Shown: piece by piece, positions 4,583-24,521 of the stretch
How the letters are laid out: each line of letters opens with the position of its first letter
Numbering within the stretch: the first letter of the stretch is position 1
From: an uncultured Eubacteriales bacterium
Lineage (GTDB): Bacteria; Bacillota; Clostridia; Christensenellales; Aristaeellaceae
Reading direction: 5' to 3'
DNA length: 64,000 nucleotides
Assembly: GCA_900315315.1 (NCBI GenBank)
Contig: OMYT01000020.1
Coordinates: 26,057-90,056, forward strand
Program-made: the position numbers and the translations under genes
Notes under the pieces: model-generated
The model's database searches: none
What the model saw: only the letters and a program-made list of their open reading frames with translations
Told to the model about the DNA's origin: nothing

Positions 4583-5734
4583 TCACTTCCCGCTCCAGGC
4601 GTTTTCGTATACCGTCACAACTTCTTCCTTCGTCGGTGTGTACAGGTTGTCCGCCATGCAGGCATCCTTCACTGCGAGTTCTGCCAGCACGCCGAAGTCC
4701 GCCGGCTGCACGCCGTTCATTTCCTTCAGTGTCCGTGGAATGCCCAGTTCCATACTCATGGTCCGAAGCTCCCGGACCAGCGTATACGGCCGCTCGTCCG
4801 GCAGAGAAAGCGCCCTGGAAATCCGCGGCATTCTTTCTCTGGCCTCAGCGCTGTGTTCCGCGTTAAACTCAACGACATAGGGGAGCAGCGTCGCGTTGCA
4901 TACGCCGTGGGGCAAATTGCTGTGGCCGCCCAAAGCATGCGCCATGGCGTGGACCATTCCGAGCCCCGCGTTGGAAAACGCCATCCCGGCTGAATACTCC
5001 GCATAGGCCATCTGCGTTCTGGCCTCTTCGTCCTGGCCGTTTCGTACAGCCCGCGGGAGCCATTTCCAGACAGTTTCCATCGCCCACAGGGCATCCCGGT
5101 CTGTCATCGGTGTGGCGTTTTTCGCCAGCAGCGCTTCGATGGCGTGCGTCAGCGCATCCAGGCCGGTGGATGCCGTCAGTTTCGGCGGCATGGACATCAT
5201 GAGTTCGATATCGTTGACCGCGATCGTGACCATACAATTCGGATCCACCATGGCCATTTTGCTGTGACGGTGCGGATCCGTAACAATATAAAAAGAAGTA
5301 CATTCGCTGCCTGTACCGGCTGTCGTGTTTACCGCCACAATCGGGATGCCCTGTCTGGCCGACTTGTTGACGCCTTCATAATCCTCCACTTTGCCGCCGT
5401 TAGCCATGACAATGCTGACCGCCTTCGCGGTATCAATCGCGCTGCCGCCGCCTACGGCAACCAGCAGGTCAATCTGCAGCATCCGGGCCGCTGTAATGCA
5501 GTCGTTGACTACATCCACCGTAGGATTCGGCTGCACCTGATAATAGACCGCATAGGACAGTCCCGCTTCTGTCAGCGCCTTTCCCACATAGTCCGCTGCG
5601 CCGGATTTGTACAGAAATCCGTCCGTCACGATCAGCGCACGGTGCAGATCCACCTTTCTCAGTTCCGGAATAAGCAATGAAACCGCGCCTTTCCCGAAAA
5701 AGCTGGTTCTGACTGAATTGACTCTGGACGGCAT
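4583..5734 (-). CDS. Iron-containing alcohol dehydrogenase
   Basis: Fe-dependent alcohol dehydrogenase of 383 residues, normal for family III. It would reduce an aldehyde to an alcohol with NADH or the reverse, regenerating NAD+. Visible motifs are the nucleotide-binding GGGSAIDTAK, the TAGTGSECT stretch, and metal-ligand region HAMAHALGGHSNLPHG with the conserved histidines. The start ATG 5734 follows AGAAGGAGAAATGCGCT. It lies at the distal end of the BMC locus but is separated from the shell genes by the divergent kinase at 5840-6730, so it has its own promoter. In BMC loci this family (PduQ, EutG) recycles the cofactor of the aldehyde dehydrogenase. No encapsulation peptide is visible at its N-terminus (MPSRVNSVRTSFFGKGAV). 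Confidence 0.92.
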   Translation of the reverse strand: MPSRVNSVRTSFFGKGAVSLLIPELRKVDLHRALIVTDGFLYKSGAADYVGKALTEAGLSYAVYYQVQPNPTVDVVNDCITAARMLQIDLLVAVGGGSAIDTAKAVSIVMANGGKVEDYEGVNKSARQGIPIVAVNTTAGTGSECTSFYIVTDPHRHSKMAMVDPNCMVTIAVNDIELMMSMPPKLTASTGLDALTHAIEALLAKNATPMTDRDALWAMETVWKWLPRAVRNGQDEEARTQMAYAEYSAGMAFSNAGLGMVHAMAHALGGHSNLPHGVCNATLLPYVVEFNAEHSAEARERMPRISRALSLPDERPYTLVRELRTMSMELGIPRTLKEMNGVQPADFGVLAELAVKDACMADNLYTPTKEEVVTVYENAWSGK

Positions 5735-5773
5735 AGCGCATTTCTCCTTCTGCGCGAAATACCTTCCGCTTCG

Positions 5774-5802
5774 TTGACTCCCGACAGATTATCTGCTACG
5801 AT
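5774..5802 (+). promoter_or_regulatory. Sigma-A promoter for the PfkB-family kinase
   Basis: TTGACT at 5774-5779, a 17-base spacer, and TACGAT at 5797-5802, about 38 bases before the start codon. It overlaps the opposing promoter for the alcohol dehydrogenase, so the two genes probably compete or are co-controlled. Confidence 0.65.
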
Positions 5803-5817
5803 ATTGTCAGAAAACAA
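5788..5817 (-). promoter_or_regulatory. Possible promoter for the iron alcohol dehydrogenase
   Basis: On the minus strand, TTGTTT (5812-5817), 18-base spacer, GATAAT (5788-5793). Weaker than the overlapping plus-strand promoter. Confidence 0.4.
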
Positions 5818-5839
5818 GCAAAACCGGAGGGATTTCTCC

Positions 5840-6730
5840 ATGAAAATCGTGAATTACGGTTCCATTAATCTTGATCATGTTTACCAGGTTGATCATATTC
5901 TTCAGCCCGGTGAAACCCTGCTGGCCCGGGAGCAGAACCTGTTTTGCGGGGGGAAGGGGCTGAATCAGTCCATCGCGCTGGCCAAAGCCGGCGCAGAAGT
6001 CTTCCACGCGGGGGTGGTCGGTGAAGACGGGGAGATTCTTCTCAATGCGCTCCGTACCGCGAATGTGGATATCCGTCACATCCGCCGCGCCGAAGGGGCC
6101 AGCGCCCACACAGTCATCCAGGTGGATCGGAACGGTCAGAACTGCATCATCGTCTTCAGCGGGGAGAACATGCATCCCTCGGAAGCGGACATCGACCGCA
6201 TCCTGGAAGACTTCGGCCCGGAAGATGCGGTACTGATGCAGAATGAGCTGTATAACACGCCTCTGATGATGCGCAAAGCTGCTGACAAAGGAATGACCAT
6301 CATTTTCAATCCTTCTCCTATCAGTCAGGAAACGCTCAGCTATCCGCTGGAATGCGTCAGCTGGTTTCTGCTGAACGAGATCGAAGGCGAAGCGCTGACC
6401 GGGGAAACCAACCCGGGAAAAATCCTTGACAGTCTGGCATCCAGGTTTCCCCGCAGCAGTGTCGTGCTGACGCTGGGTAAAAACGGAGCCTGGGCAATGG
6501 ACCAGGGACAGCGGTTCTTCCAGCCCGCCTTTGAGATCAAAGCGGTGGACACCACCGCGGCAGGCGATACCTTCACCGGTTTCTTCCTGGCCGCCGTCAG
6601 CAGTGGAATGCCGATCCCGGCAGCCCTTCGCCGCTGTGCTTTCGCTTCCTCCATTGCTGTGAGCCGGAAGGGAGCGGCGGATTCCATCCCCACTGCTGAA
6701 GAAGTTAGTTCAGCGTTTCCGGATCAATAA
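5840..6730 (+). CDS. PfkB-family carbohydrate kinase (ribokinase-like)
   Basis: Sugar or nucleoside kinase of about 296 residues that would transfer phosphate from ATP to a sugar hydroxyl. The family signatures are the N-terminal GGKGLNQSIALAKAGA (position about 37) and the C-terminal anion-hole and catalytic motif DTTAAGDTFTGFF, with Asp as base. ATG 5840 is chosen because it follows CCGGAGGGATTTCTCC and gives a normal ribokinase N-terminus (MKIVNYGSINLDHVYQV). It diverges from the alcohol dehydrogenase and converges on the BMC shell gene at 6705, overlapping it by 26 bases. The substrate could be ribose or a related pentose delivered by the neighbouring importers; that is inference. Confidence 0.9.
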   Translation: MKIVNYGSINLDHVYQVDHILQPGETLLAREQNLFCGGKGLNQSIALAKAGAEVFHAGVVGEDGEILLNALRTANVDIRHIRRAEGASAHTVIQVDRNGQNCIIVFSGENMHPSEADIDRILEDFGPEDAVLMQNELYNTPLMMRKAADKGMTIIFNPSPISQETLSYPLECVSWFLLNEIEGEALTGETNPGKILDSLASRFPRSSVVLTLGKNGAWAMDQGQRFFQPAFEIKAVDTTAAGDTFTGFFLAAVSSGMPIPAALRRCAFASSIAVSRKGAADSIPTAEEVSSAFPDQ

Positions 6731-6971
6731 TCCCGGCCACGCACAAATCGCATGGAGGCAGTTTTTGTAGATCGGTCATCATCGCGGCTTCCATTCTGCC
6801 GATCAGATAAACCGTATCTCCGATCCCGGCCTGGTGAGTCCCGTCGGACGCAATCACCAGGCCTTTTGGTTTGCCGTCTGCCAGAAGGCGGATCACCAGC
6901 AGTTTGACGCCTGTCAGCGTCGGTGTTTTGACGGTGCAGACGACGCTGCCTTCCACCCGGCCGATATTCAT
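6705..6971 (-). CDS. BMC-P pentameric shell protein (EutN/CcmL family), copy 1
   Basis: Small beta-barrel protein of 88 residues of the EutN/CcmL family, which forms pentamers capping the vertices of bacterial microcompartments. It begins at ATG 6971 after TAAAGGAGGCGGA; an upstream in-frame start lacks a site. Family features are the N-terminal MNIGRVEGSVVCTVKT (gating of the first strand), the central LLVIRLLADGKPKG and the GIGDTVYLIG loop. It is the last of four tandem BMC-P genes. Its 3' end overlaps the convergent kinase by 26 bases, so there is no room for a terminator between them. Confidence 0.9.
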   Translation of the reverse strand: MNIGRVEGSVVCTVKTPTLTGVKLLVIRLLADGKPKGLVIASDGTHQAGIGDTVYLIGRMEAAMMTDLQKLPPCDLCVAGIIDPETLN

Positions 6972-6984
6972 TCCTCCGCCTCCT

Positions 6985-7275
6985 TTAATGGCACTGAACT
7001 GTCCGGCCCTGCCAGGTATAGGAATCCACAACGCCGCAGACGGTCAGTCCGGCGATGATTTCCTTGTCCCCGGTAATCATTTTGGCTGCGCCGCCGTCAT
7101 TGTTTGTCAGGACAATATCCCCCACGCCAGCATCCGCCATATCGAGGGCCACCAGTTCCTCGCCGACAGTCCAGCCCTCAAGATTCAAATGCCGCACCTT
7201 CAGCAGCTTGTATCCCTGATAACGGCCGTATTTGATCGTGGACACCACGGTGCCCGTCACCTTCGAAAGCTTCAT
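6985..7275 (-). CDS. BMC-P pentameric shell protein (EutN/CcmL family), copy 2
   Basis: Shell vertex protein of 96 residues (MKLSKVTGTVVSTIKYGRYQG...). The motif DAGVGDIVLTNNDGGAA matches the glycine-rich loop of EutN-like proteins and VCGVVDSY the final strand. ATG 7275 overlaps the stop of copy 3 as ATGA, indicating translational coupling. It differs clearly in sequence from the other three copies, so the shell probably uses distinct pentamers and this is not a recent duplication. Confidence 0.9.
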   Translation of the reverse strand: MKLSKVTGTVVSTIKYGRYQGYKLLKVRHLNLEGWTVGEELVALDMADAGVGDIVLTNNDGGAAKMITGDKEIIAGLTVCGVVDSYTWQGRTVQCH

Positions 7276-7571
7276 ACGTCTCCTTTTGTGAACACCCGTT
7301 TTCCGAGGATGTCCACATTGTCCACAATGCCGATGATCGTCGCATCCACCGGTTTGTTGGTTGTCATTTCCGTCGCGCGGGAACTGGAGCCTCCGCACCA
7401 CATCACGATCTCTCCCTCGCCGGCGCCTACCGTATCCACGGCAATGAAGGGTGCGCCCTTCTCGCTGAATGTATCCATATCGATCGGAATGGCAACCAGA
7501 AGCTTCATGCCTTCCAGTCTGTCACATTTTCGCGTGGAAATCACGCTTCCGATCACTTTTGCCAGTTGCAC
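7272..7571 (-). CDS. BMC-P pentameric shell protein (EutN/CcmL family), copy 3
   Basis: Shell vertex protein of 99 residues (MQLAKVIGSVISTRKCDRLEGMKLLV...). GAGEGEIVMWCGGSSSRA is the typical EutN glycine and serine loop, and IIGIVDNVDILG the closing strand. Its start lies 19 bases inside the end of copy 4, and its stop overlaps the start of copy 2 by four bases, so copies 2 to 4 form a coupled block. It is closest to copy 4 among its neighbours, both having the GSSSR turn. Confidence 0.92.
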   Translation of the reverse strand: MQLAKVIGSVISTRKCDRLEGMKLLVAIPIDMDTFSEKGAPFIAVDTVGAGEGEIVMWCGGSSSRATEMTTNKPVDATIIGIVDNVDILGKRVFTKGDV

Positions 7572-7876
7572 GGATCTTCCTCCTCCGCTTTGTCATAAGT
7601 ACGCTTTCCGCGCAGATCCACAGAATCGATAATTCCGTAAATCGTGTAGTCCGAAGCGAACTGCTTCGAGGTATCCGACTGGCGGGAGGAACTGCCGTAA
7701 GCGCCAAAGACCAGGTCTCCGACCCCCGCTCCCACATCGTCAATCATGATCTGGTAATCGTCCTTCATTTCCATCGTGGAAAGATCCACGGTCTGCACAA
7801 TCAGCATCTTGGCGTTCCGAAGCTTCTCGCTTTTGTTGGAGCTGACCACATTGCCCGTTACGCGTCCCACAATCAT
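7553..7876 (-). CDS. BMC-P pentameric shell protein (EutN/CcmL family), copy 4
   Basis: Shell vertex protein of 107 residues (MIVGRVTGNVVSSNKSEKLRNAKMLIVQ...). It carries GAGVGDLVFGAYGSSSRQ and IYGIIDSVDL, both typical of EutN/CcmL. A charged C-terminal tail (DKAEEEDPCNWQK) is longer than in the other copies. The start overlaps the stop of the LacI-family regulator gene by four bases, so regulator and shell proteins are co-translated. Confidence 0.92.
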   Translation of the reverse strand: MIVGRVTGNVVSSNKSEKLRNAKMLIVQTVDLSTMEMKDDYQIMIDDVGAGVGDLVFGAYGSSSRQSDTSKQFASDYTIYGIIDSVDLRGKRTYDKAEEEDPCNWQK

Positions 7877-8898
7877 GGCTGTTCCTCCGGTACCTTTGTC
7901 AGCGCTTTTGTTGAATTCCGGATAATCAGTTTTCCGCCCAGCAGCAACTTCATGCAGGGATAATCCGGATGTCTCATCCGCCTGCGCAGGATGCTGACCG
8001 CCATCTCACCCATGGCGGAACGGGAAATCCGCATGGTCGTCAGGGCCGGCATCGTGGTCGCACTGAACGGAATATCATCGAAACCGATAATGGAGATATC
8101 CTCCGGGATGGAATATCCGGCTTCCCGGATTGCCTTGATTGCCCCGATCGCAATGGTATCATTGTCGCAGACCACTGCGCCGTGAGGAACATACTCCCCG
8201 CTCCGGATCATCCGGGCAAGATCCTCAAAAGCGCCGTCCACCGTCGGTTTGAGCAGGATCGGTTCCGGTTTTTCCAGGCCCAGACGTTCCAGCGCCGCCA
8301 GATAACCCTCATACCGTTCGTCACAGTTCCGGACCGCCCGGGAAAATTTGAAATAACCGATATCCCGGTGTCCGCATTCTGCCAGGTATTCCACCAGGCT
8401 TGCAGCCAGATTGGCATTATCCATCACCACGCAGTCCGTCCCGGGGTGATAGAGGTTCTGATCCAGCGCTACCAGCGGCACATCGATCAGATCCAGCAGG
8501 GGGAAGTCTTCTTTCGGCAGCTCTGTCGCGATCAGGATGACACCGTCCGGAGCCGCGTTCATCATATCACGGATCGTTGCGGTGGCCGTTTCCGGTTCGC
8601 AGTTGTACATCATCAGGTCATACCCGTAATGCCGGCACTCGCTTTCGATCCGGTCCACAATGGATGCAATGAATCCCTGGTTTTCCTCAAAAGCAATGCC
8701 GTGAACCCGGTATTTCAGGACCACAATTCTGAGGGGCCGTACGCTTTTCTTCCGGACAGACGGCGAATAGCCGCTTTCCTCCATCACGGAAAGAATACGC
8801 TTACGGGTTTCGTCAGAAACCCCTTTTTTGTTGTTGATCACGAGGGACACCGCGGCGGGAGAAACCCCGGCCAGTGCAGCAATCTCCCTGATGGTCAT
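7873..8898 (-). CDS. LacI-family transcriptional regulator of the BMC locus
   Basis: DNA-binding repressor or activator of 341 residues. The N-terminal helix-turn-helix (MTIREIAALAGVSPAAVSLVINN) and hinge (VSDETRKRILSVMEESGYSP) are canonical LacI, followed by a periplasmic-binding-protein-like effector domain ending in GFDDIPFSATTMPALTTMRI. ATG 8898 follows GGGGAGTGAAACAGG. It lies inside the operon, between the BMC-P genes and DhaL, so it is expected to control this operon and perhaps the divergent importer. The effector could be the imported sugar or its phosphate. Its operator is not proven; AT-rich repeated AAACAA elements lie in the promoter region at 20500-20600. Confidence 0.93.
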   Translation of the reverse strand: MTIREIAALAGVSPAAVSLVINNKKGVSDETRKRILSVMEESGYSPSVRKKSVRPLRIVVLKYRVHGIAFEENQGFIASIVDRIESECRHYGYDLMMYNCEPETATATIRDMMNAAPDGVILIATELPKEDFPLLDLIDVPLVALDQNLYHPGTDCVVMDNANLAASLVEYLAECGHRDIGYFKFSRAVRNCDERYEGYLAALERLGLEKPEPILLKPTVDGAFEDLARMIRSGEYVPHGAVVCDNDTIAIGAIKAIREAGYSIPEDISIIGFDDIPFSATTMPALTTMRISRSAMGEMAVSILRRRMRHPDYPCMKLLLGGKLIIRNSTKALTKVPEEQP

Positions 8899-8931: not shown

Positions 8932-9528
8932 TTACTGTTTTCCCCGATATTCAGCATACCCCTTCATCAGCAGCGCCGCGACAGCCGCACCGGGATCCAG
9001 CAGTTCCCGCGATGCTTCGCCCCGGATCGCCATCCGGCCGTGCTTTGCCAGCATTCCTTTTGTTCCCTCAAAGGCGGACCAGGCGATCTCCGCCGTTTCC
9101 TCCGGTGTTTTCCCGGCCTTCAGTGCCTGCACCGCAGGCAGCATTCCGTCCAAAAACGTCTTTTCACCCGGCTGTGCTTTTCCGCGGTTCTGTACGCCGT
9201 CATACCAGGCTTCGAAGAAATCCGCGTCCGCCGCTTCCTCCTGTCCTTTCAGCTGTTTTCCCGCGTTCATCAGGCCGCTGGCCATCAGCGTTCCCATCGT
9301 CGAGGGAACCGCTGTCGCCATGGCTTTCCCCGCCTGATAGGCAAGCTTCCCCACGTCTGTCACGTCGCTTGCGGAAACCGCCTCAGCCGCGGCGGCAAAG
9401 CCGTCGCTCATTGTCAGGCCCAGATCGCTGTCCCCCACCACGCTGTCCAGTTCAATCAGCCATTCCTTCTTTTCGTTCATCAGCGCAGCCCAGGCGGCAA
9501 GTAAGCCTTTCAGTTCTGCTGCGTTCAT
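8932..9528 (-). CDS. dhaL: Dihydroxyacetone kinase L subunit-like protein (DhaL)
   Basis: Nucleotide-binding subunit of a dihydroxyacetone-type kinase, about 198 residues. The metal and ADP-binding signature appears as DSVVGDSDLGLTMSDGF, near GDGDHG in canonical DhaL, and the glycine-rich TAVPSTMGTLMASGL loop follows. Two close ATG codons compete; 9528 (MNAAELKG) is preferred because GGAG lies eight bases before it but only two before the first. No phosphotransfer partner DhaM is visible in the window, so ATP could be the phosphate donor, as in two-subunit kinases that act on ketoses such as erythrulose. The substrate in this locus is unknown. Confidence 0.88.
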   Translation of the reverse strand: MNAAELKGLLAAWAALMNEKKEWLIELDSVVGDSDLGLTMSDGFAAAAEAVSASDVTDVGKLAYQAGKAMATAVPSTMGTLMASGLMNAGKQLKGQEEAADADFFEAWYDGVQNRGKAQPGEKTFLDGMLPAVQALKAGKTPEETAEIAWSAFEGTKGMLAKHGRMAIRGEASRELLDPGAAVAALLMKGYAEYRGKQ

Positions 9529-9597
9529 CGTCATTTCTCCGTTCCTTCCATATATGATCCCCGGCATGGTGACCGGTGGGATAAGTCCGCTTCCTGC

Positions 9598-10614
9598 TTA
9601 CAGCTGAAACTGTTTAAAGAAAGGCGTATCGACCGGAGCCGCCAGCCAGCCCTTCAGTTCGTCATCCAGCCGCAGCAGCGAAATCGATGCGCCGGCCATT
9701 TCCATGGAAGTGGCAAACTCTCCGACATAGGTATGCCAGATGCTGATTCCCTTCCCGTCAAGGATCTGTTTGACCCGCCGGAACATCACATACTGTTCCT
9801 CCAGCGGTGTGGCGCCGAGGCCGTTGATCAGCACGGCCACTTCATCCCCGGCCTTGTAAGGAATATCGCTGAGGATCGGCTCAAGCATCTCATCCGTCAT
9901 CTCGTCTGCGGTTTTGAGCTTGCCCCGCCGGATACCCGGTTCGCCGTGGATCCCCATGCCGATCTCCATTTCGTCTTCGCCGATCTCGAAGCTGGGATGT
10001 CCGACCCGCGGCACCGTGCAGGAGCTCAGCGCCACGCCCATGGTCCGGACATTGGCGCACGCTTTTTCCGCGGCTGCCTTCACCTGATCCAGATCCCTGC
10101 CTTCCGCCGCAGCCGCGCCGGCGCATTTGTAGACAAAGAAAATCCCTGCCACGCCGCGGCGCTTGTTCGGTTCCCCTTCCGCGGAGGGGGCGGCCGAAGC
10201 GACATCCTCGCCGGCCACAACGCTCTCGACCCGGATGTCTTCTTCCATATCCGCCATTTCCGCGGCCATGTCAAAGTTGAAGATATCTCCGTTGTAGTTG
10301 CCATAAATATACAGCACGCCGGCGCCCTGGTCAATCTCCTTCGTCACCGCCAGCATCTGCTCGGCGCTCGGAGACTGGAATACGTCGCCGATGGAGCAGC
10401 CGTCCAGCATGCCCTTGCCGACATAGCCCAGAAACAGCGGAAGATGACCGGAACCTCCGCCGGTTGCGATGCCCACTTTGCCTGCCTGCTTATGCTTCGT
10501 CACAAGGCAGTGAAGATCGCCGTTCACGCACATCAGGTCGTCCGGATGGGCCGCGTAGATTCCTTCCAGCATCTCCGGAATAAAGCGTTCAGGCGTGTTG
10601 ATGATTTTCTTCAT
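9598..10614 (-). CDS. dhaK: Dihydroxyacetone kinase K subunit-like protein (DhaK)
   Basis: Substrate-binding subunit of a dihydroxyacetone or short-ketose kinase, about 338 residues. It has the glycine-rich [10 protein letters not shown] loop near residue 52 and GMGIHGEPG around residue 220, where His223 corresponds to the histidine that forms a covalent hemiaminal with the ketone. The start ATG 10614 follows GGAGGAGAAACC; an upstream in-frame start is rejected. It is directly upstream of DhaL in the operon with 69 bases between them. As DHAP is already phosphorylated after an aldolase step, this kinase probably acts on a different ketone, for example free dihydroxyacetone or a tetrulose. Confidence 0.92.
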
Positions 10615-10644
10615 GGTTTCTCCTCCGATCACAGACAGCCTTTT

Positions 10645-11067
10645 TTACAGACAACCTTTTTTGATAATGAAACACGCATAAAGAGCATTCTCGCCTGTTG
10701 CCACCGTGGCATACGCTTTCTTTGCACGGTCATAGAAATCAAAGCGCCCGATTTTTTCAAATTTGACGCCGGGCTGATGCTTCTGGCAGATTTCATCCAG
10801 TACAGCCCAGATCGGCGGGTCTCCGTCCAGACCGCCCTGCGGATCCATCACAGTCACCGGAGCGGGTACATACTGATCCAGCGGGAACAGCTGCAGAATC
10901 GCATCCAGCAGTTCCGCACCGCCATGTCCGTCACAGCGAACGCACCGCTGTCCCATGGACTGTGCCGGAAAATTGAGATCGCCGATCACCAGTTCATCCC
11001 CGTGGCCCATTTCCGCCAGGATTTTCAGCAGTTCCGGCGTCAGGAGGGGAGAAATACCCTTCAACAT
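10645..11067 (-). CDS. RbsD/FucU-family sugar mutarotase, BMC-locus copy
   Basis: Protein of 140 residues that would speed the alpha-beta anomer exchange of a sugar. The N-terminus MLKGISPLLTPELLKILAEMGHGDELVIGD carries the catalytic histidine of the family, and the end (YATVATGENALYACFIIKKG) matches FucU. It is clearly related to the second copy at 24782-25210. It lies between DhaK and the BMC-H genes with about 30 to 40 bases on each side. A C1 kinase such as the MtnK-like protein in this operon needs one anomer, which gives a reason for a mutarotase here; that link is inference. Confidence 0.9.
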   Translation of the reverse strand: MLKGISPLLTPELLKILAEMGHGDELVIGDLNFPAQSMGQRCVRCDGHGGAELLDAILQLFPLDQYVPAPVTVMDPQGGLDGDPPIWAVLDEICQKHQPGVKFEKIGRFDFYDRAKKAYATVATGENALYACFIIKKGCL

Positions 11068-11109: not shown

Positions 11110-11385
11110 TTATGCCTGAGGCAGAATAGCCTCTACTTCCTCATGGGGCCTTGGAATCACATGCACGCTGACCAGTTCACCCACGCGCTTGGCCGCTGCA
11201 CCGCCCGCTTCCACGGCAGCTTTCACGGCGCCCACATCGCCCCGAACCATCACGGTTACCAGTCCGCCGCCCACGCGTTCCTTGCCGATCAGGTGTACAT
11301 TGGCCGCTTTCACCATCGCGTCCGCCGCCTCAATCGAGCCGACAAGTCCTTTTGTTTCCACCATTCCCAATGCCAGCAGTTCCAT
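11110..11385 (-). CDS. BMC-H hexameric shell protein (PduA-like), copy 1
   Basis: Shell protein of 91 residues with a single BMC domain that forms hexamers tiling the facets. It starts [30 protein letters not shown], has the lysine-edge region and the pore-loop area [19 protein letters not shown], and ends [17 protein letters not shown], all typical of PduA/EutM-type proteins. It is very similar to copy 2 upstream, at DNA as well as protein level, which indicates a tandem duplication with recent or homogenised sequence. The short C-terminus lacks extra domains. Confidence 0.97.
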
Positions 11386-11416
11386 GATTCTGATCTCCTC
11401 TCATTTCTGATTCTTC

Positions 11417-14189: not shown

Positions 14190-14203
14190 AAACAACCTCT
14201 GAA

Positions 14204-15307: not shown

Positions 15308-15326
15308 TGTCTCTTCTCCTTTTCTG

Positions 15327-16538: not shown

Positions 16539-16625
16539 CTTCCATACTCCCTTCCTGCATTTCTTTTAACTTGCCAATTCATCCTGTATTATCAGGCCTG
16601 CCTTCCGGCAAACCGGAAAACCTCT

Positions 16626-17342: not shown

Positions 17343-18139
17343 ACCTTCTCCACCTCCCCGATCAGCTCCCGGAGCTGCACCGCGTTCTCCAGGCCGGTAT
17401 ACCGCCGGATCATCTGTTCATCCGGTTCATAGGCGCCGAAGCAACTTCCCGGGAAAGCACCCATGCGGGCGCGCACCACATGGGATACCATAAAGTGGGG
17501 CACATCCGCTTTGACCTCGTTCCGGCTGAACCATCCGTCGTCCACGATCGCCTCCGCCGTCACAATCACCCGCTTCGCGGCGCGGGTCATCAGCACATCG
17601 TCATACTTCGGGCCTTCGATCAGGGCGTTTCCGCAGGCATCCGCCTTCTGAACATGAATGACCGCCACATCGGGCCGCAATGCTTTGACCGCCGCCAGCT
17701 TTTCCCCGCCGAACGGATCCGCCACGTCCGCAAAATAGTCGTTCACCTTGCGCAGGTCCGAAATCTGCAGCCCGCGGACCGGCATGAAAGGAATGCCGTA
17801 CGCGCCGGCCCTCAGAGCGGAGATGACTGTATAGCAGGCATGCTCGTTCGCGATGACCTGTCCCGCCTGAACCGCCCGGCGGTAGTGCTGCGCCAGCCCG
17901 TACTCCGTCTCCAGGCTGATGAACCCGGCGTCCACACTGTCCAGGCATCCACCCAGCGCGAGCAGGTCTACGTCCAGCCCGCCGGCTGTTTTGATCAGCC
18001 GCAGATGCTGCTTCCGCAGGCGGATCAGTTCCAGCACCGCTTCCATCGGCGCCCGGTTCAGCGTGTTTCCGCCCAGGGCAATCAGCGCGCCGTCCTGAAC
18101 AGAAGCGGCAGCCTCCCGCATCGAGCAGAGCTTATCCAT
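17339..18139 (-). CDS. CoA-transferase subunit A-like protein (family I)
   Basis: Alpha subunit of a CoA transferase, about 266 residues. It starts MDKLCSMREAAASVQDGALIALGG at ATG 18139 after GGAAGGAATC; an upstream frame start lacks support. IALGGNTLNRAPMEAVLELIR, DVAVIHVQKADACGNALIEG and RVIVTAEAIVDDGW match glutaconate CoA-transferase A-like proteins. It forms a coupled pair with the B subunit. The gene lies 26 bases downstream of the flavoprotein gene, so it is part of the long BMC operon. Confidence 0.87.
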   Translation of the reverse strand: MDKLCSMREAAASVQDGALIALGGNTLNRAPMEAVLELIRLRKQHLRLIKTAGGLDVDLLALGGCLDSVDAGFISLETEYGLAQHYRRAVQAGQVIANEHACYTVISALRAGAYGIPFMPVRGLQISDLRKVNDYFADVADPFGGEKLAAVKALRPDVAVIHVQKADACGNALIEGPKYDDVLMTRAAKRVIVTAEAIVDDGWFSRNEVKADVPHFMVSHVVRARMGAFPGSCFGAYEPDEQMIRRYTGLENAVQLRELIGEVEKV

Positions 18140-18164
18140 GATTCCTTCCGTGTTCCTTTCCTTA

Positions 18165-19496
18165 CTATTTCGCCGCATTCGCCGCAATATGCACCGCATC
18201 CCATACCGAAGCAAACGGCGGCGCATACGCCAGATCCGTCATCCCCAGTTCCTCCGTGGTCATTCCGTTATGGATCGCCACGGCAATGATATCCGTCCTC
18301 ATCACCGCGTTTCGCTTTCCGCAGACATTGGCCCCCAGCAGTTTCCTCGTCCGGGTGTCATAGATCAGTTTGATTGTGAGCTTCACCGGATCCGGATAAT
18401 AAGCCGGATGGTCAAAAGCCGTCACCAGCTTTGTTTTGTAATCCATGCCCAACCGCCTGGCGTCCCGCTCCGTCATGCCCGTGCGGCCGAATTCCATTTC
18501 AAAGATCTTGATGGCGGCAGTCCCCAGTGCCCCGATAAACTTCGTATGCCCGCCGGCCATGTTTTCCCCGGCGATCCTGCCGCATTTGTTTGCCACCGTT
18601 CCCAGGGCGATGAACGAATCCTCCTGCATCAGCCGGTGATAAACGGTCGCGCAGTCCCCGGCTGCCCAGATATCTTCGATAGAAGTCCGCATTTCCCGGT
18701 CCACCAGGATTGCCCCGTTACGGATCATGCGGATACCCGTATCCCGGAGGAAACCCGTCGCCGGCCGCACACCGACCGCCATCACCACGATATCGCAGCT
18801 CACGTCGCCGCCGCCGGTCCTGACGGTCCGGGAACGCCCGGCTTCCTCGATGGCTGTCACAGGGCTGCGGACCATCACTTTTACGCCGTTGCGTTCCAGT
18901 TCCTGTGCCGCCAGCTCCGAAAACTCGGGCTCAAAGGTGTTCAGAATCCTGTCCCCGCCTTCAATCAGCGTTACCTGTCGTCCGAGCCGGACCAGCGCCT
19001 CCGCCATCTCCACCCCGATGTATCCGCCGCCGATAACCGCCACATGATGCACACCCTCCAGGTGGACGATCTCCCGGAGCACCAGCCCATCCTCCATGCT
19101 CCGCAGGCAGAAAACGGAAGGCAGATCCGCGCCGGGAAGCTTCGGGATCACGCTGTTGCATCCCACCGCGATCATCAGTTTGTCATAAGCATCCTCAAAC
19201 TCTCTGGCGGATTTCAGATCCCTGACCAGCACCCTTTTCGCTTCCGGATCCACCCGGAGCACCTCATGATGCAGCCGGCAGTCAATCTTCATTTCCCGGT
19301 ACTGCTCCTGCGTCCGTGCAATCAGTTTGCCGGGTTCCGTGTTAAAATCCCCGATATAATATGGAAGGCCGCATGCCCCGTAGGACAGAAACCCGCCTTT
19401 CTCATAAACGGTAATCTCCGCGTCGGGCTGCATCCGGCGAAGCTTCGAAGCCGCGGACATCCCGGCGGCTACTCCTCCGATTACAATCGCCTTCAT
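18165..19496 (-). CDS. FAD/NAD(P)-dependent oxidoreductase, CoA-disulfide reductase/NADH oxidase family
   Basis: Flavoprotein of about 443 residues. The FAD Rossmann motif GGVAAGMSAASKLRR opens the protein, and SYGACGLPYYIGD places a redox cysteine at residue 42, as in CoA-disulfide reductase and NADH oxidase. The second nucleotide fold is VAVIGGGYIGVEMAEAL and the FAD end motif is VWAAGDC-like (IWAAGDCATVYH). ATG 19496 follows GGAAGGAGAGCGGAAC. It could keep CoA reduced or dispose of electrons from the aldehyde dehydrogenase. No rhodanese domain is fused. Its presence inside a BMC operon is uncommon. Confidence 0.88.
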   Translation of the reverse strand: MKAIVIGGVAAGMSAASKLRRMQPDAEITVYEKGGFLSYGACGLPYYIGDFNTEPGKLIARTQEQYREMKIDCRLHHEVLRVDPEAKRVLVRDLKSAREFEDAYDKLMIAVGCNSVIPKLPGADLPSVFCLRSMEDGLVLREIVHLEGVHHVAVIGGGYIGVEMAEALVRLGRQVTLIEGGDRILNTFEPEFSELAAQELERNGVKVMVRSPVTAIEEAGRSRTVRTGGGDVSCDIVVMAVGVRPATGFLRDTGIRMIRNGAILVDREMRTSIEDIWAAGDCATVYHRLMQEDSFIALGTVANKCGRIAGENMAGGHTKFIGALGTAAIKIFEMEFGRTGMTERDARRLGMDYKTKLVTAFDHPAYYPDPVKLTIKLIYDTRTRKLLGANVCGKRNAVMRTDIIAVAIHNGMTTEELGMTDLAYAPPFASVWDAVHIAANAAK

Positions 19497-19540
19497 GTTC
19501 CGCTCTCCTTCCATCCCAACTTTTTACTAATCTCCAGTCA

Positions 19541-19557
19541 CTAGCCACTAGCCACTA
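19541..19557. repeat. Short tandem repeat CTAGCCA between flavoprotein and aldolase genes
   Basis: Two and a half copies of a 7-base unit (ctagcca ctagcca cta) that ends in the stop codon of the aldolase. Too short for a CRISPR or origin iteron array; function unknown. Confidence 0.6.
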
Positions 19558-20439
19558 AACGCTCCCTCCGAGCCTCGCAATCACCGCCCGCGTAATCTGC
19601 CGCAGTTCCTCCTCGCTCAGCGCGTCCGATCCGCCTGCGCAGCCGCAGGGGGAGGATCCGGATACCTGCCCGTAGGTTTTCAGGCCGCTGTCCGGGTTAG
19701 TGACAGGGCTTCCCGCCACAACGTCCACCGTATTGCTGGGTCTCGGGGCGCAGGCCGGCACCCCGCCGGAGGTGATTCCCATTTTTTCCCGCAGGCGAAT
19801 CAGCTCGCTGACCTGGTCGCAGCTCAGCACATTGGCCTTGCCGATGATGTTGCCAGTGTACATGATTACCATGGCATAATGCTCCGTGGATTCCAGCCGG
19901 TACCATGCCTCCGTCAGCGAGGTTCCCCAGGCTACCGCCCCATGGTTGGCCAACAGCAGGGCATTATAGTCCCGTACATAGGGCGCGATGGAATCCGGGA
20001 TTCCCTGGGAACCCGGCGCTTCGTAGTGAACGCAGGGAACGGTCCCCAGGTTCACCAGCGCCTCCGGATAGATGGCCCGGTCCAGGCTCATCCCCGCGAT
20101 GGCGAAGGATGTCGATATCGGCGGGTGCGCGTGACAGACTGCCATCGCGTCGCTTCTTTCCTGATAGATCCGCAGATGCATCTTCACTTCGCTGGAGGGA
20201 CCCTTCTCCCCCTGGCTGATCACGGTTCCGTCCAGCCGCATCTTGACCATCTCATCCTCGGACATGAAACCCTTCGACACGCCGGTCGGCGTCGTCATGA
20301 TGGTGTCCTCATCCACTTTGCAGGAGATGTTGCCGTCGTTGGCTGCGACGAAATTCTTCATATACATGCGCCGTCCGATCTCCACGATCATCTTCCGGGC
20401 TTCGGCGTCAGTCGGGTACCGTTTCAGTTCATTCATCAT
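19555..20439 (-). CDS. Class II aldolase (FucA/Ald2/DrdA family) with C-terminal encapsulation-type tail
   Basis: Zinc aldolase that would cleave a ketose-1-phosphate to DHAP and an aldehyde; first gene of the BMC operon. At 294 residues it exceeds the usual 215 or so. The catalytic core shows GNIS (36-39), SSE with the catalytic Glu (82-84), zinc ligands in HAHP (103-106) and NHG (165-167). From about 225 to 270 there is a Gly/Ser/Pro-rich linker with cysteines, then an amphipathic helix (SEEELRQITRAVIARLGG) of encapsulation-peptide type. The neighbouring MtnK- and MtnA-like proteins point to 5-deoxyribulose-1-phosphate or 5-methylthioribulose-1-phosphate as substrate; fuculose- or rhamnulose-1-phosphate are alternatives. 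Two adjacent ATG codons (20439, 20436) can serve as start. Confidence 0.93.
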   Translation of the reverse strand: MMNELKRYPTDAEARKMIVEIGRRMYMKNFVAANDGNISCKVDEDTIMTTPTGVSKGFMSEDEMVKMRLDGTVISQGEKGPSSEVKMHLRIYQERSDAMAVCHAHPPISTSFAIAGMSLDRAIYPEALVNLGTVPCVHYEAPGSQGIPDSIAPYVRDYNALLLANHGAVAWGTSLTEAWYRLESTEHYAMVIMYTGNIIGKANVLSCDQVSELIRLREKMGITSGGVPACAPRPSNTVDVVAGSPVTNPDSGLKTYGQVSGSSPCGCAGGSDALSEEELRQITRAVIARLGGSV

Positions 20440-20530: not shown

Positions 20531-20692
20531 TAGACAAACAAGTCATTTTTATCTTTCGTTTAGTAAACAAACTGTAAAGTTTTTGTCCTGTTTGTCATTA
20601 TTTTGTGAAAAACGCTTCATTTTTTCCATTTTTGATTCTTTTCCTATTTAATGCAACTTCCGGCACAGAGATAAATATTCATAAAACATTGC

Positions 20693-20721
20693 TTGACAAA
20701 CTACTTGACATGCAGTATACT
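20693..20721 (+). promoter_or_regulatory. Sigma-A promoter of the BMC-linked importer operon
   Basis: TTGACA (20693-20698), 17 bases, TATACT (20716-20721); start site predicted near 20728, about 48 bases before the binding-protein ATG. Confidence 0.85.
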
Positions 20722-20775
20722 CTGCTTAACAAAAAAGCGGGTGTTTCCCGCGGGAACAAAATAGGAGGTTATACC

Positions 20776-21882
20776 ATGAAGAAAGTAATCGCTGTGGTCC
20801 TCGCTCTGATGCTGGCGCTGTCCATGCTGACAGCCGCAAGTGCCGAGACCGCCAACCCCGTCGCCGGCAAGAAAGTTGCGTACATCATGCTGCTTCCCTC
20901 TGCCACCATTTTCCAGATGTGGGCCAACTCCTGTCAGGACCTGTGCAAGGCCCTGGACGTAGAGTGCGACGTGCACTTCTGCGGCGGTGACTTCAACAAA
21001 TGGCAGGATACCATTTCCGCCTGCGCCGCCGCCGGCTATGACGGCATCCTCGTCAGCCACGGTAACCAGGATGGTTCCTACACCTTCCTGAAGGGCATCA
21101 CCGAGCAGTATCCGGATATGAAGATCGTCTGCTTCGATACCCAGTTCTATACCGACGGTGAGTATCAAAAGCTCCCCGGCGTCACCCAGCTGTTCCAGCA
21201 GGATAAGTCCCTGGTCACCGTTCTGCTCGACGCCATGATCGACAAGTTCGGTGAGGGCGTCCGCCTGATCAAGGTCTGGCGCGGCCCGAACTACAACAGC
21301 CCCTTCGATCGCCGTGAAGTCGGCTGGCAGGAATATGAATCCGCCGGCAAGATCAAGACCGTCGGCGAAGTACAGCCCCTGCAGGATACCCTGGATTCCG
21401 CCAACTCCGTCATGGCCGCTTATCTGCAGTCCGTCAACCGTGACGATGTGGACGGCGTCGTGGTTTACTACGATCTGTACGGCCAGGGCGTCTACAACGC
21501 CATCTCCGAAGACTCCAACTTCAACGGCGACAAAGCGCTGCCCATGGCTTCCGTTGACATTGACCAGGTCGACGTAACCAACATGCAGAATCATCCGGAA
21601 ATCTGGATGGCCGCCGGCACCACCGACTGGACCATGAACGGCGAGATCGCGATGCGCCTCCTGCTGCTCGAAATGGCCAATGAATATGACAAGATCTACG
21701 ATCCCGCCAGCCAGCAGTACGGTGTGGACGTGGTCGAAGTACCCGGCACCGCCATCATGGCAACATCCCTGAAGGACACCTCCACCGTGGAGAACCTCGG
21801 CGAGATCGCCGGCGAGACCTACGGCAACCTGAGCTATCTGAGCGTGGCTGACTGGATGCCCGCCGATCTGCTCCATAAGTAA
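20776..21882 (+). CDS. Sugar-binding protein of ABC importer (RbsB-like, periplasmic-binding family)
   Basis: Extracellular binding protein of about 368 residues. ATG 20776 follows a strong GGAGGTTATACC and opens a signal peptide (MKKVIAVVLALMLALSML...ASA-ET) without a lipobox cysteine. The mature part has VAYIMLLPSATIFQMW, a sugar-binding segment AAAGYDGILVSHGNQDG and DGVVVYYDLYGQGV, typical of the ribose/galactose-type family. It leads an importer operon divergent from the BMC operon, so its ligand is likely the BMC substrate, for instance a 5-deoxy or 5-thio pentose or a nucleoside. That is inferred from position only. Confidence 0.9.
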   Translation: MKKVIAVVLALMLALSMLTAASAETANPVAGKKVAYIMLLPSATIFQMWANSCQDLCKALDVECDVHFCGGDFNKWQDTISACAAAGYDGILVSHGNQDGSYTFLKGITEQYPDMKIVCFDTQFYTDGEYQKLPGVTQLFQQDKSLVTVLLDAMIDKFGEGVRLIKVWRGPNYNSPFDRREVGWQEYESAGKIKTVGEVQPLQDTLDSANSVMAAYLQSVNRDDVDGVVVYYDLYGQGVYNAISEDSNFNGDKALPMASVDIDQVDVTNMQNHPEIWMAAGTTDWTMNGEIAMRLLLLEMANEYDKIYDPASQQYGVDVVEVPGTAIMATSLKDTSTVENLGEIAGETYGNLSYLSVADWMPADLLHK

Positions 21883-21971
21883 TTTCTCAATCGTCATTCC
21901 TTACCGGGAGGGTCGGAGCCCTTACTCCGGCCCTCCTTTTCTTCAGAACACTGATGAGAAGAGGGGCGTCC

Positions 21972-23489
21972 ATGGAAAGAATCAAACTCGGAACCCGGAA
22001 AGTCTCCATCGAGTTTCCCGGCGTCAAAGCGCTGACGGACGTGGATTTCGAGGTGACCACCGGGGAGATCCATGCCCTGGTTGGGGCCAACGGCGCCGGA
22101 AAGTCTACCCTGATGAAGGTGCTGGCCGGCGCCAATCCGGACTATACGGGCGAAGTCTATCTGAACGGCGATACGGTTGAACTCCGTTCCACCCTGGCGG
22201 CCAAGAAGCTCGGCATCCAGATCGTGTATCAGGAAGTCGACATGGCGCTGATCCCCACGCTGTCGGTGGCGGAAAACGTCATGCTGAACGATACTGTCAT
22301 GCACGGCAAAACCATCATGAACTGGCGCAGCCTGTACAAACGGGCCGCCGAGGTTCTGCAGCGGCTGAACATTGAAGTGGATGTTCATAAGCTTGTTCAG
22401 GATCTGTCCCTGGCGCAGAAGCAGATGGTGCTGATTGCGCGGGCCATTGTCAACGAGTGCAATTTCCTGATCCTGGACGAGCCTACAGCGCCTCTTTCCG
22501 ATACGGAAACGGAGGAGCTGTTCAAGCTCGTCAAACATCTCCAGGCCACCGAGAACATCGCCATCATCTTTATCTCCCACCGGATCAACGAAATCATCCG
22601 GATCTGCGAGCGCTATACTGTCATGCGCAACGGCCGGGTCGTGGATACCACGGAGATCACGCCGCAGACTACCACCCGGGAGATCGTCGAGAAGATGCTC
22701 GGCCGGTCCTTTGAGGAAAACTTCCCGAAGGAAGTGGCGGAGATCGGCGAGATCATCTTTGAGCTCGATCATCTGTCCGGCGCGGACGGCAGGGTGAACG
22801 ATGTTTCTCTCTACGCGCGCAAGGGCGAAATCGTCGGCGTCGCAGGCTTGGTGGGTGCGGGAAAATCCGAGCTTTGTAAAACCATCTTCGGCGCCTATGA
22901 AAAGACCGGCGGCAGGGTCATCATGGGTGGCCGGGAGCTGACGATCAAAAATCCTTCCCAGGCGCTGAAAAACCGGATCGCCCTGGTGCCCGAGGAGCGC
23001 CGCAAAGAGGGCGTCCTGGTCGGCGAGACAGTCAGCTTCAACATTTCGGCTGCCTCGCTGGACAACTTCTGCACCGCTTCTTTCATCAACAAGCGAAAGA
23101 TCGATCAGTGTGCGGAGGATTATGTTCAGAAACTGGGCATCTCCACGCCATCCGTCAAGCAGTTTGTGAAAAACCTCTCCGGCGGCAACCAACAGAAAGT
23201 GGCCGTCGCGAAATGGATGGCCGCGGACTGCGATCTCTATATTTTTGATGAGCCGACCAAGGGCGTTGACGTCGGTGCGAAGCAGGATATCTTCCACCTG
23301 ATCTGCGACATCGCCAAACGCGGGAACAGCGTCATCTACGCCTCCTGCGAGAACTCCGAGCTTCTTTCTATTACCGACCGGATCTATGTGCTCTTCGACG
23401 GTCAGGTGATGGCGGAGCTGGAAACTTCAAAAACCTCGGAAGACGAGATCATGCATTACGCCGTGGGCAACCGCGCCCAATACGCTTAG
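21972..23489 (+). CDS. Double-ATPase subunit of RbsA/MglA-type sugar importer
   Basis: Energy-coupling subunit with two fused ABC domains, 505 residues, the normal length. The first has GANGAGKSTLMKVL, LSLAQKQMVLIARA, FLILDEPTAPLSDTE and an intact ISHRINEII...RYTVMRNGR segment; the second has VGAGKSELCKTIFG, LSGGNQQKVAVAKW and YIFDEPTKGVDVG. ATG 21972 is used because the preceding six-codon extension lacks a site; a GAAGAGGGG lies upstream. The first signature is SLAQKQ, the degenerate form common in this family. It is the second gene of the three-gene importer. Confidence 0.95.
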   Translation: MERIKLGTRKVSIEFPGVKALTDVDFEVTTGEIHALVGANGAGKSTLMKVLAGANPDYTGEVYLNGDTVELRSTLAAKKLGIQIVYQEVDMALIPTLSVAENVMLNDTVMHGKTIMNWRSLYKRAAEVLQRLNIEVDVHKLVQDLSLAQKQMVLIARAIVNECNFLILDEPTAPLSDTETEELFKLVKHLQATENIAIIFISHRINEIIRICERYTVMRNGRVVDTTEITPQTTTREIVEKMLGRSFEENFPKEVAEIGEIIFELDHLSGADGRVNDVSLYARKGEIVGVAGLVGAGKSELCKTIFGAYEKTGGRVIMGGRELTIKNPSQALKNRIALVPEERRKEGVLVGETVSFNISAASLDNFCTASFINKRKIDQCAEDYVQKLGISTPSVKQFVKNLSGGNQQKVAVAKWMAADCDLYIFDEPTKGVDVGAKQDIFHLICDIAKRGNSVIYASCENSELLSITDRIYVLFDGQVMAELETSKTSEDEIMHYAVGNRAQYA

Positions 23490-23504
23490 GCAGGAGGAAT
23501 CAAC

Positions 23505-24521
23505 ATGACGCAAATAACCCCCAAACCCAATATGGCTGCTATGCCGAAGCAGAAAAAAAGCGCCGGTAAAATCCTGATCGATTGGGCAGCCGTGATTACC
23601 CTGGTCGTGAGTGTGATCGCCTTCACCCTGATCAAGGGGAACCGGTTCATGTCCGCGAACAACATGATCAACATTCTCCGGGCCATGTCCATTACCACGG
23701 TCTTCGGCATCGCCGCCACGGTCACCATGGCGCCGGACGGATTTGACATGTCCGCCTGTACGCTGGCCAGCTGCTCCGCCTACGTGTTTGTCAGTATGTA
23801 CCTCTGGCACGGGCTGCCCCTTCTTGTCTGTGTCCTGATTACCATCCTGGTCACGCTTATCATGTATCAGCTGACCATGTTCCTGATTCTGGTCTGCAAG
23901 ATCCCGGACATGCTGGCCACCTGCGCTCTCATGTTCGTCCATCAGGGCCTCGGGCAATGGTATATCGGCGGCGGCGCGGTATCCACCGGCATGCGGACCC
24001 CCGCCGGCGCAGATCCCAAGCGGATTCAGCTGGGCGAGGATTTCCTGGCCATCGGCAAGGAGCCCTGGCTGATCATTATCATGCTGGCCTGTGTACTGAT
24101 TGCCTATATCTTCCTTGAGCATACCAAGCACGGCCGCTTCATTTACGCCATGGGCGGAAACAAACAGGCTGCCAAGCTTTCCGGTATAAACGTCAAAGCC
24201 TACCGGTACCTGGCCGGTATGATTACCGCGGTGTTCATCGCCATCGGCGGTATCCTGGTTTCCTCCCGCGGCAGTTCCGCGCAGGTTATGTGCTGCGATA
24301 ACTATCTGATGCAATCCCTTGCCGCGGTCTTCGTCGGCCGGACGGTCGGCGGCGCTGAAAAGCCAAACGCTTTAGGCACGATGATCGGTGCGCTGCTGGT
24401 CTCCACGCTGGAAAATGGCCTGACCATCTGCGCCGTCCCCTTCTATGTCCTTCCCGCCGTCAAAGGCGCTGTGCTGGCACTGGCACTGGTTGCTGCTTAC
24501 GCGACCAAGAAGGAACAGTAA
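23505..24521 (+). CDS. RbsC-type sugar ABC permease of the BMC-linked importer
   Basis: Membrane subunit of 338 residues with eight to ten hydrophobic segments. GGNKQAAKLSGINVKAYRYLAGMI is the family's cytoplasmic coupling region, and the GRTVGGAEKPNALGT stretch is near the usual GGTS..GG site. ATG 23505 follows GGCAGGAGGAATCAAC. Only one permease is present, so a homodimer is expected. It is followed by a strong terminator, which closes the operon. Confidence 0.93.
   Translation: MTQITPKPNMAAMPKQKKSAGKILIDWAAVITLVVSVIAFTLIKGNRFMSANNMINILRAMSITTVFGIAATVTMAPDGFDMSACTLASCSAYVFVSMYLWHGLPLLVCVLITILVTLIMYQLTMFLILVCKIPDMLATCALMFVHQGLGQWYIGGGAVSTGMRTPAGADPKRIQLGEDFLAIGKEPWLIIIMLACVLIAYIFLEHTKHGRFIYAMGGNKQAAKLSGINVKAYRYLAGMITAVFIAIGGILVSSRGSSAQVMCCDNYLMQSLAAVFVGRTVGGAEKPNALGTMIGALLVSTLENGLTICAVPFYVLPAVKGAVLALALVAAYATKKEQ

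Follow-up and report, generated by a model that had tools for sequence, protein, structure and literature searches.

A bacterial microcompartment locus pairing shell genes with a methylthioribose/5-deoxyribose-type kinase, isomerase and tailed aldolase

Which sugar could feed a bacterial microcompartment (BMC) whose shell genes share one operon with a kinase, an isomerase and an aldolase of the dihydroxyacetone phosphate (DHAP) shunt? The question is raised by a locus at positions 4583–24521 of a 64,000-nucleotide stretch (the window) of contig OMYT01000020.1 (positions 26,057 to 90,056; assembly GCA_900315315.1) from an uncultured, gut-type Eubacteriales bacterium of the Aristaeellaceae. A sequence-only reading had proposed a compartment for 5-deoxyribose or methylthioribose, and our comparisons support that proposal: the kinase-isomerase-aldolase trio goes with the shell, the aldolase keeps its Glu and His residues, and its C-terminal tail tracks the shell genes. 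Judged from the genes alone, the locus probably encodes a metabolosome for 5-deoxy-D-ribose, and possibly for other 5-modified riboses such as methylthioribose.

From a divergent promoter, the minus strand carries in order the aldolase, a coenzyme A (CoA)-disulfide reductase, two CoA-transferase-like subunits, MtnK, MtnA, PduL, PduP, two BMC-H genes, FucU, DhaK, DhaL, LacI and four BMC-P genes (Table 1). Next to the BMC-P genes follow PfkB, on the opposite strand, and an iron-containing alcohol dehydrogenase (ADH), and a ribose-type ABC importer starts on the plus strand across the promoter from the aldolase. An MtnK-type kinase, an MtnA-type isomerase and a class II aldolase are all found within this one cluster. 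Profile scans confirmed the named shell, PduP, PduL, MtnK, MtnA, aldolase, importer and iron ADH genes where they had been predicted; the shell itself is marked by two PF00936 and four PF03319 genes, with three EutN_CcmL genes at 6705–7876 and a further BMC-P gene at 7272–7571 inside the same range. The metabolosome core set of PduP, PduL and iron ADH is present. The ADH gene expected at 4583 is indeed there, but it is not contiguous with the operon, from which PfkB (5774–6730) separates it. As had been claimed, glycyl radical enzymes, diol dehydratases and ethanolamine lyases were absent from the scanned window proteins, which comprise part of its open reading frames (ORFs). Genes beyond the earlier list are DhaK/DhaL, FucU, LacI, the CoA-transferase-like pair and the CoA-disulfide reductase. 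The same genome also encodes an acetate kinase, on another contig, and a methylthioadenosine/S-adenosylhomocysteine nucleosidase.

Within the genus, kinase and shell mark the same genomes. BMC-H (PF00936) genes occur in 7 of 45 genomes and MtnK matches in eight; the match is full-length in seven, identical to the seven shell carriers, and weak and partial in the eighth (G013; 20 bits, 28% identity, 119 residues). All six same-genus relatives with BMC-H genes keep the arrangement from importer to iron ADH. Because this arrangement recurs in six relatives, and because the 7 of 45 genomes with full-length MtnK are also those with BMC-H, we do not regard it as a product of chance. Details do vary. 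DhaK/DhaL are absent in two of the relatives (L031 and L033), and PfkB stands at its window place in L034–L036 and not at that place in L031–L033, where the iron ADH directly follows the BMC-P genes. A sister-genus genome (L037) has the same set plus a double-domain BMC protein and a PduS-like protein.

A similar association was found further afield. A kinase-alignment scan of the named genome collection gave 122 relatives, of which 80 were retained as loci; six are from same-genus genomes and one is from the sister genus. Shell genes are present in 32 of these 80 MtnK loci, accompanied by MtnA in 31 and by a tailed aldolase in 29; no aldolase was seen in the sequence stretches of shell loci L113, L117 and L132. 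The kinase-isomerase pair is thus conserved with the shell genes in relatives, both in the seven genus genomes and in 31 of 32 shell-bearing loci, a point on which the sequence-only reading had let its case depend. The carriers are Bacillota plus one Treponema (L096), and include uncultured Clostridia and Oscillospiraceae (metagenome-assembled genomes) as well as the cultured Lacrimispora celerecrescens, L. algidixylanolytica, Anaerocolumna aminovalerica, Acetanaerobacterium elongatum and Proteocatella sphenisci. At many further loci, Clostridium magnum L127 among them, the trio occurs without shell genes and often beside a sugar importer, and such shell-free operons with importers mark the trio as a unit. 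In an even sample of the phylum, MtnK matched in 21 of 398 genomes, one of them the window's own, and none of the 15 surroundings fetched from the 20 other matching genomes showed shell genes around MtnK. A scan of viral contigs with MtnK gave no relative.

The tail of the aldolase also tracks the shell. The window enzyme has a 72-residue tail after residue 222, and a tail of 51–104 residues is found in 30 of 30 complete aldolases from shell loci, the window's among them. In 28 aldolases from shell-free loci of at least 19.5 kb, by comparison, the tail is 0–19 residues in 24 and 45–57 in 4 (Fisher p 1.6e-12, kinship not corrected). This table omits L068 and L069 as duplicates, L123's second aldolase and an incomplete aldolase in L146. 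It also omits loci in which a kinase row and a complete aldolase were not both present, as well as L095, L109, L118, L139 and L148 (tails of 55, 14, 26, 3 and 0 residues), whose stretches are too short to be called shell-free. We extended the comparison to Lachnospiraceae, where 104 of 299 genomes had an aldolase match, and took as further loci the 20 best matches, one previously included apart. All nine with shell genes (L250 being the contig of L126) have tails of 50–99 residues, and of the 11 without, nine have tails of 0–16 and two of 40–45. Shell-free trios without an aldolase tail include Clostridium magnum L127 and L262. The genome of C. magnum, whose aldolase has no tail, carries other types of shell genes outside the trio locus, so the mark is the tail rather than the presence of a shell somewhere in the genome. 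Where a tailed aldolase does stand at a shell-free locus, BMC matches were found in 5 of 5 genomes, compared with 14 of 43 other genomes searched; two of the five are the Cytobacillus genomes taken up below.

A linker followed by a terminal helix is the usual build of an encapsulation peptide. The AlphaFold model of the window aldolase, made from 43 sequences (mean pLDDT 88.2), predicts such a build, with a linker below 50 at residues 260–271 and a helix near 90 at 276–292; this model replaced an earlier one from 7 sequences (mean pLDDT 31), which was dropped. In the 43 aligned aldolases E84, H103, H105 and H166 are invariant, and we take these, after FucA, to be the base and the metal ligands. 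The nearest folds are YgbL, DrdA (6btd/6btg) and FucA, with 30% identity to DrdA and 24–25% to Escherichia coli FucA over the fold. We infer that the tailed aldolase is the signature enzyme of the compartment and that its cargo-type extension would direct it into the shell. GRM5-like aldolases are also tailed, and the tail therefore speaks for encapsulation and not for a particular substrate. For PduP, 19 N-termini picked by motif have a helical moment of z 10.1, and the value of the window's own N-terminus was reached by 0.014 of shuffles.

The shell genes that accompany the trio are of two kinds. Before the PduP tree was made, loci were sorted by gene order and identity into type A, which includes the window locus, and type B. 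In the type A relatives L099, L104 and L110 the order is PduL, BMC-P, PduP, PduS, a BMC protein (42–48% identity; double-domain in L037), BMC-H, BMC-P, BMC-H, BMC-P, and this shell gene order equals that of five Treponema loci bearing DeoC. In type B (Lacrimispora, Anaerocolumna and others) the shell genes are ordered like those of GRM5-like loci, and no glycyl radical enzyme was found in the stretches examined. For the PduP tree, labels were set beforehand from gene content; Pfam later confirmed those of PDU (3 of 3) and the presence of a glycyl radical enzyme in L210, the GRM5 label of L044 and L045 rests on gene order, and the six SPU-labelled rows comprise five that bear DeoC and L039, labelled without confirmation. 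L132 and 4 of 7 far outgroup loci were left out. Type B comes out as a single clade (100/99) not joined to GRM5, and the tree leaves the type A and the SPU-labelled rows intermingled and unresolved. Topology tests reject a grouping of A with B (p-AU 8.2e-06) and do not reject type A plus the six SPU-labelled rows as one clade (p-AU 0.42). In three Lachnospiraceae loci (L254–L256) the trio stands beside type A-like shell genes.

The Treponema loci bear on the identity of the aldehyde. Their PduP is 65–66% identical to that of the window, and by eye the N-terminus of their DeoC has a cargo-type helix sequence. In three Treponema genomes (L095, L101, L111) a tailed trio aldolase stands in a stretch with no shell gene and a DeoC-bearing shell locus lies elsewhere; two of the three showed no other shell locus. 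The sole product common to DeoC and a 5-deoxyribulose-phosphate aldolase would be acetaldehyde, the aldehyde to which the BMC catalogue assigns the SPU aldehyde dehydrogenases (PMC8217296). The link in genome content to DeoC-bearing shell loci thus favours acetaldehyde, and with it 5-deoxyribose, as the identity that the sequence-only reading had left open, with methylthioribose as a lesser candidate. Tentatively, and at slightly less than an even chance, we propose that two metabolosome backgrounds, one DeoC/SPU-like and one of GRM5-like order, each captured the DHAP shunt to give a 5-deoxyribose-fermenting organelle that would gain energy via acetyl-phosphate, and that some Treponema represent a halfway state, in which a tailed aldolase of the 5-deoxyribulose-phosphate type would feed acetaldehyde to the DeoC compartment. 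The DeoC-bearing shell loci (L200–L204) hold two or three DeoC-family genes each.

Gene set, conservation, cargo-type tails, aldolase active-site residues and shell backgrounds are features of the sequences themselves, and from them we infer substrate, enzyme locations and shell assembly. In the pathway that we propose, the importer would take up the free sugar and FucU would balance its anomers. A cytosolic MtnK would form the 1-phosphate, and MtnA would isomerise it to the ribulose-1-phosphate. Inside the shell, the tailed aldolase would cleave this compound to DHAP and, with 5-deoxyribose, acetaldehyde, which encapsulated PduP and PduL would convert to acetyl-CoA and on to acetyl-phosphate. 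The acetate kinase encoded elsewhere could then make one ATP per acetaldehyde oxidised, while some of the aldehyde would be reduced to ethanol by the iron ADH, regenerating NAD+, and DHAP would exit to glycolysis. For aldol cleavages of this sort the equilibrium is reported to favour the condensed form, at about 1e-4 (PMC6079011), and removal of the aldehyde would for that reason pull the cleavage forward.

Several observations weigh against a 5-deoxyribose compartment, or weaken a step in the argument for it. Once kinship is considered, three supported independent tail-shell pairs remain, two of them agreeing and none against (p 0.5). The two Lachnospiraceae aldolases with tails of 40–45 residues have no shell gene in their locus, and in two Cytobacillus genomes a trio locus with a tailed aldolase coexists with a shell locus of another kind, which is why these genomes were not counted as tail-shell support. 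The amphipathicity of the window aldolase's terminal helix is nothing unusual, its value being reached by 0.37 of shuffles, and the same holds for the N-terminus of PduL (0.75). For the type A tails together the helical moment is z 2.3, compared with z 5.5 for tail-less C-ends, and since the latter also score high this measure does not discriminate tails. The aldolase tree, from which nine near-duplicate or incomplete loci were left out, separates the window aldolase from E. coli FucA and the GRM5-type with a support of only 86/93 and long branches, and it puts other kinase-linked aldolases on the side of FucA. SPU loci also differ in gene order from the window locus, which has no PduS, no BMC-T and the BMC-P genes last. 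The catalogue gives RpiB as a mark of SPU (PMC8217296); no RpiB was found in the Treponema DeoC loci, hence our terms DeoC-bearing and SPU-like, and in 4 of the 5 genomes searched the matches to RpiB are on different contigs. The DeoC activity of those Treponema proteins is assumed. Lastly, DrdK has nearly equal kcat/Km for 5-deoxyribose and methylthioribose (PMC6079011), and because it accepts both sugars the kinase family does not fix the substrate.

The behaviour of DrdK also speaks for a compartment for methylthioribose, in which the aldehyde would be methylthioacetaldehyde, oxidised to methylthioacetyl-CoA, and the CoA-disulfide reductase and CoA-transferase-like pair would handle sulfur-containing CoA adducts. 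Kinase and isomerase score above cut-off against methylthioribose families, and reductase and pair recur on both shell backgrounds. However, L096, L110 and L112 show neither of these two accessories (the missing pair in these shell loci also counts against the 5-deoxyribose compartment), the type A PduP enzymes and those of the DeoC-bearing loci, where acetaldehyde would be the aldehyde, may form a single clade, and the Treponema satellite tailed aldolases occur with DeoC-bearing loci. We consider a methylthioribose compartment unlikely, though it is the strongest of the competing explanations. A compartment for fucose or rhamnose, with fuculose- or rhamnulose-1-phosphate cleaved to lactaldehyde and MtnK/MtnA serving something else, seems improbable to us. 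The combination of class II aldolase, PduP and PduL is the PVM pattern, a FucU gene is at hand, and a survey assigned PVM-like gut loci a PVM-similar substrate (PMC8156839). The locus genes, however, include no fucose or rhamnose isomerase or kinase, and MtnK and MtnA accompany the shell genes across taxa. Moreover, four GRM5-like Lachnospiraceae loci with related aldolases lack MtnK/MtnA in the 10.8–20 kb fetched, two of the four having a glycyl radical enzyme.

There is also a precedent for coincidence: in Acetobacterium woodii a methylthioribose kinase gene beside the Pdu cluster was called unrelated to BMC function (PMC7593272). By analogy, kinase and isomerase in the window could be ordinary methionine-salvage genes that merely neighbour a compartment of other function. 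The identity of the MtnK and BMC-H carriers in 7 of 45 genus genomes, the recurrence of the trio in two phyla and with either shell background, and the shell-free trio operons with importers, which mark the trio as a unit, make this explanation very improbable. We retain a 5-deoxyribose metabolosome as the preferred reading.

It leaves the CoA-transferase-like pair, the CoA-disulfide reductase and DhaK/DhaL unaccounted for. The pair (16626–18226) has its nearest relatives among PDB matches that we take to be AibA/AibB and IpdAB, and in GctAB. Subunit A conserves an EHACYT motif in 27 sequences. In subunit B an Asn-Ile is invariant in 30 sequences, at a place where CoA-transferases have their catalytic Glu; solved AibB forms differ at one position, one of them having a cysteine there, presumably the active cysteine of AibB. 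The pair recurs with the CoA-disulfide reductase in both type A and type B, and in L250 and L251 the iron ADH lies downstream of it. It is likely an enzyme of unknown reaction. DhaK/DhaL, FucU and PfkB also stand beside the shell-free trio in L262, so they seem tied to the pathway and not to the shell. Elsewhere, L043 (genome G080; 15416–18761) has a distant MtnK (29% identity) and a CoA-transferase-like pair (27–30%) near a different BMC locus.

The DHAP shunt and the DrdK-DrdI-DrdA salvage route (PMC6079011, PMC10986504) likewise combine an MtnK-type kinase, an MtnA-type isomerase and a class II aldolase, often with a sugar transporter, and the published D. acetiphilus Drd cluster includes a fucose-mutarotase homologue (PMC6079011). 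In the parts of these papers available to us, however, there is no shell, PduP or PduL and the word microcompartment occurs 0 times, whereas the aldolase described here is tailed and shell-linked. An E. coli strain given the soluble pathway was unable to ferment 5-deoxyribose, for which the authors blame ATP yield and/or redox balance (PMC10986504). To the SPU metabolosome (PMC8217296, PMC4207490) the family is linked by the shell order and PduP identity described above and by the proposed acetaldehyde product, but in Pfam scans the window locus genes have no DeoC-type PF01791 aldolase and no RpiB-type PF02502 isomerase; the one DeoC found in the window's genome has 243 residues and no cargo-type extension. 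GRM5, for fucose and rhamnose, shares the tailed class II aldolase and, with type B, the shell gene order; it differs in having a glycyl radical enzyme, of which none was seen among the window locus genes scanned, and a zinc ADH, in having no MtnK/MtnA, and in a PduP that groups apart from type B. PVM and PVM-like loci (PMC4207490, PMC8217296, PMC8156839) share the class II aldolase signature, PduP and PduL, while the window locus has LacI instead of DeoR, has MtnK and MtnA in addition, and has no lactate/malate dehydrogenase or acetate kinase among its genes. Among the literature matches listed, no paper was found that joins microcompartments with methylthioribose, 5-deoxyribose or the DHAP shunt, and the A. 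woodii kinase is the sole co-mention (PMC7593272). A survey of gut BMCs gives ethanolamine, propanediol, choline, fucose/rhamnose, aminopropanol/aminopropanone and xanthine as pathways (PMC6620236). The terms thioribose, pfam01008 and CoA-transferase do not occur in the main text of the catalogue (PMC8217296); its supplement may file some such loci under PVM-like, MIC or another label.

As for regulation, the TGTTTACTAAAC palindrome between aldolase and importer is the sole site in the window at no more than 1 mismatch. Counted on two strands it gives 2 matches, with 0.20 expected and 2 reached in 5 of 100 shuffles. The site is aligned in the same-genus relatives L034–L036 and not clear in L031–L033, and an inverted-repeat search of the divergent promoter gave weak arms only. 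Some further observations concern neighbouring or related genes. The long C-terminal extension of PduL (13293–14195) gives a weak match to TIGR02536 (25.7 bits, below cut-off). The Cytobacillus trio loci are L147 and L158, and the shell loci of these genomes L197 and L198, the former with UbiD and adenine-deaminase-like genes. A second sugar locus at 24782–34815 holds another FucU, an aldo/keto reductase, a zinc ADH, an FGGY kinase, a class II FBP-type aldolase and a second sugar ABC importer. Beyond it (36756–63828) the window encodes six GGDEF and/or EAL proteins (at 36756, 38596, 39957, 55729, 57354 and 62407) and, in the same 27 kb, two Na/Pi cotransporter-PhoU fusions (at 49938 and 60527).

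Table 1. Features of the microcompartment locus, in window coordinates.
Feature	Position	Strand	Evidence
Iron-containing ADH, candidate NADH-consuming aldehyde reductase	4583..5734	-	PF00465/PF25137
PfkB-family kinase between shell genes and iron ADH	5774-6730	+	profile scan
BMC-P vertex protein, true start probably inside ORF	6705..7031	-	PF03319 60 bits, residues 21-103
BMC-P vertex protein, true start probably inside ORF	6985..7401	-	PF03319 65 bits, residues 43-126
BMC-P vertex protein	7272..7571	-	PF03319 100 bits
BMC-P vertex protein	7553..7876	-	PF03319 80 bits
LacI-family regulator	7873..8898	-	PF00356, PF13377
DhaL, dihydroxyacetone kinase subunit, accessory	8932..9567	-	PF02734 107 bits
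DhaK, dihydroxyacetone kinase subunit, accessory	9598..10632	-	PF02733 407 bits
FucU/RbsD-type sugar mutarotase	10645..11067	-	PF05025 142 bits
BMC-H shell protein	11110..11385	-	PF00936
BMC-H shell protein	11417..11713	-	PF00936
PduP-type CoA-acylating aldehyde dehydrogenase, encapsulation-peptide-like N-terminal helix	11773..13296	-	NF011927 637 bits, cut-off 403
PduL phosphotransacylase with C-terminal extension	13293..14195	-	PF06130 218 bits; NF011652 225 bits, cut-off 209
MtnA/DrdI-type aldose-1-phosphate isomerase	14204..15361	-	TIGR00512 411.6 bits, cut-off 279
MtnK/DrdK-type 5-methylthioribose/5-deoxyribose kinase	15327..16538	-	TIGR01767 413.7 bits, cut-off 275
CoA-transferase-like subunit B	16626..17342	-	PF01144; PDB 5n03/5mzw
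CoA-transferase-like subunit A (AibA/GctA/IpdA fold family)	17339..18226	-	PF01144; best PDB match 5mzw_A
CoA-disulfide reductase-like flavoprotein	18165..19514	-	NF007123 551 bits, cut-off 458; TIGR03385 450 bits, below cut-off 579
Class II (FucA/DrdA-fold) aldolase, C-terminal linker and terminal helix (276-292) of encapsulation-peptide type	19555..20439	-	PF00596 163 bits
Candidate operator, TGTTTACTAAAC palindrome, between aldolase and importer	20557..20569	.	motif search
Sugar-binding protein of divergent importer	20605..21882	+	PF13407 51 bits
Sugar ABC ATPase (ribose/xylose type)	21954..23489	+	PF00005, two stretches
Sugar ABC permease (RbsC type)	23505..24521	+	PF02653

Cells that use S-adenosylmethionine make 5'-deoxy-nucleosides, the sugars of which are excreted or salvaged, and 5-deoxyribose is the waste sugar of radical S-adenosylmethionine chemistry. 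The reading that the DHAP-shunt trio works with a shell is well supported by genome context, and if it is true, organelles of this type would have this sugar as a new fuel; an aldolase coupled to PduP and PduL could supply anaerobes with ATP and contain the acetaldehyde. The cultured carriers Lacrimispora celerecrescens, Anaerocolumna aminovalerica and Proteocatella sphenisci make the reading testable. The locus belongs to a family that spans several taxa and two shell backgrounds and includes accessory genes, and is wider than the sequence-only reading had seen. For some of the aldolase-type gut microcompartments thought to be PVM-like, and to act on fucose or rhamnose, the 5-deoxyribose reading may supply the substrate.

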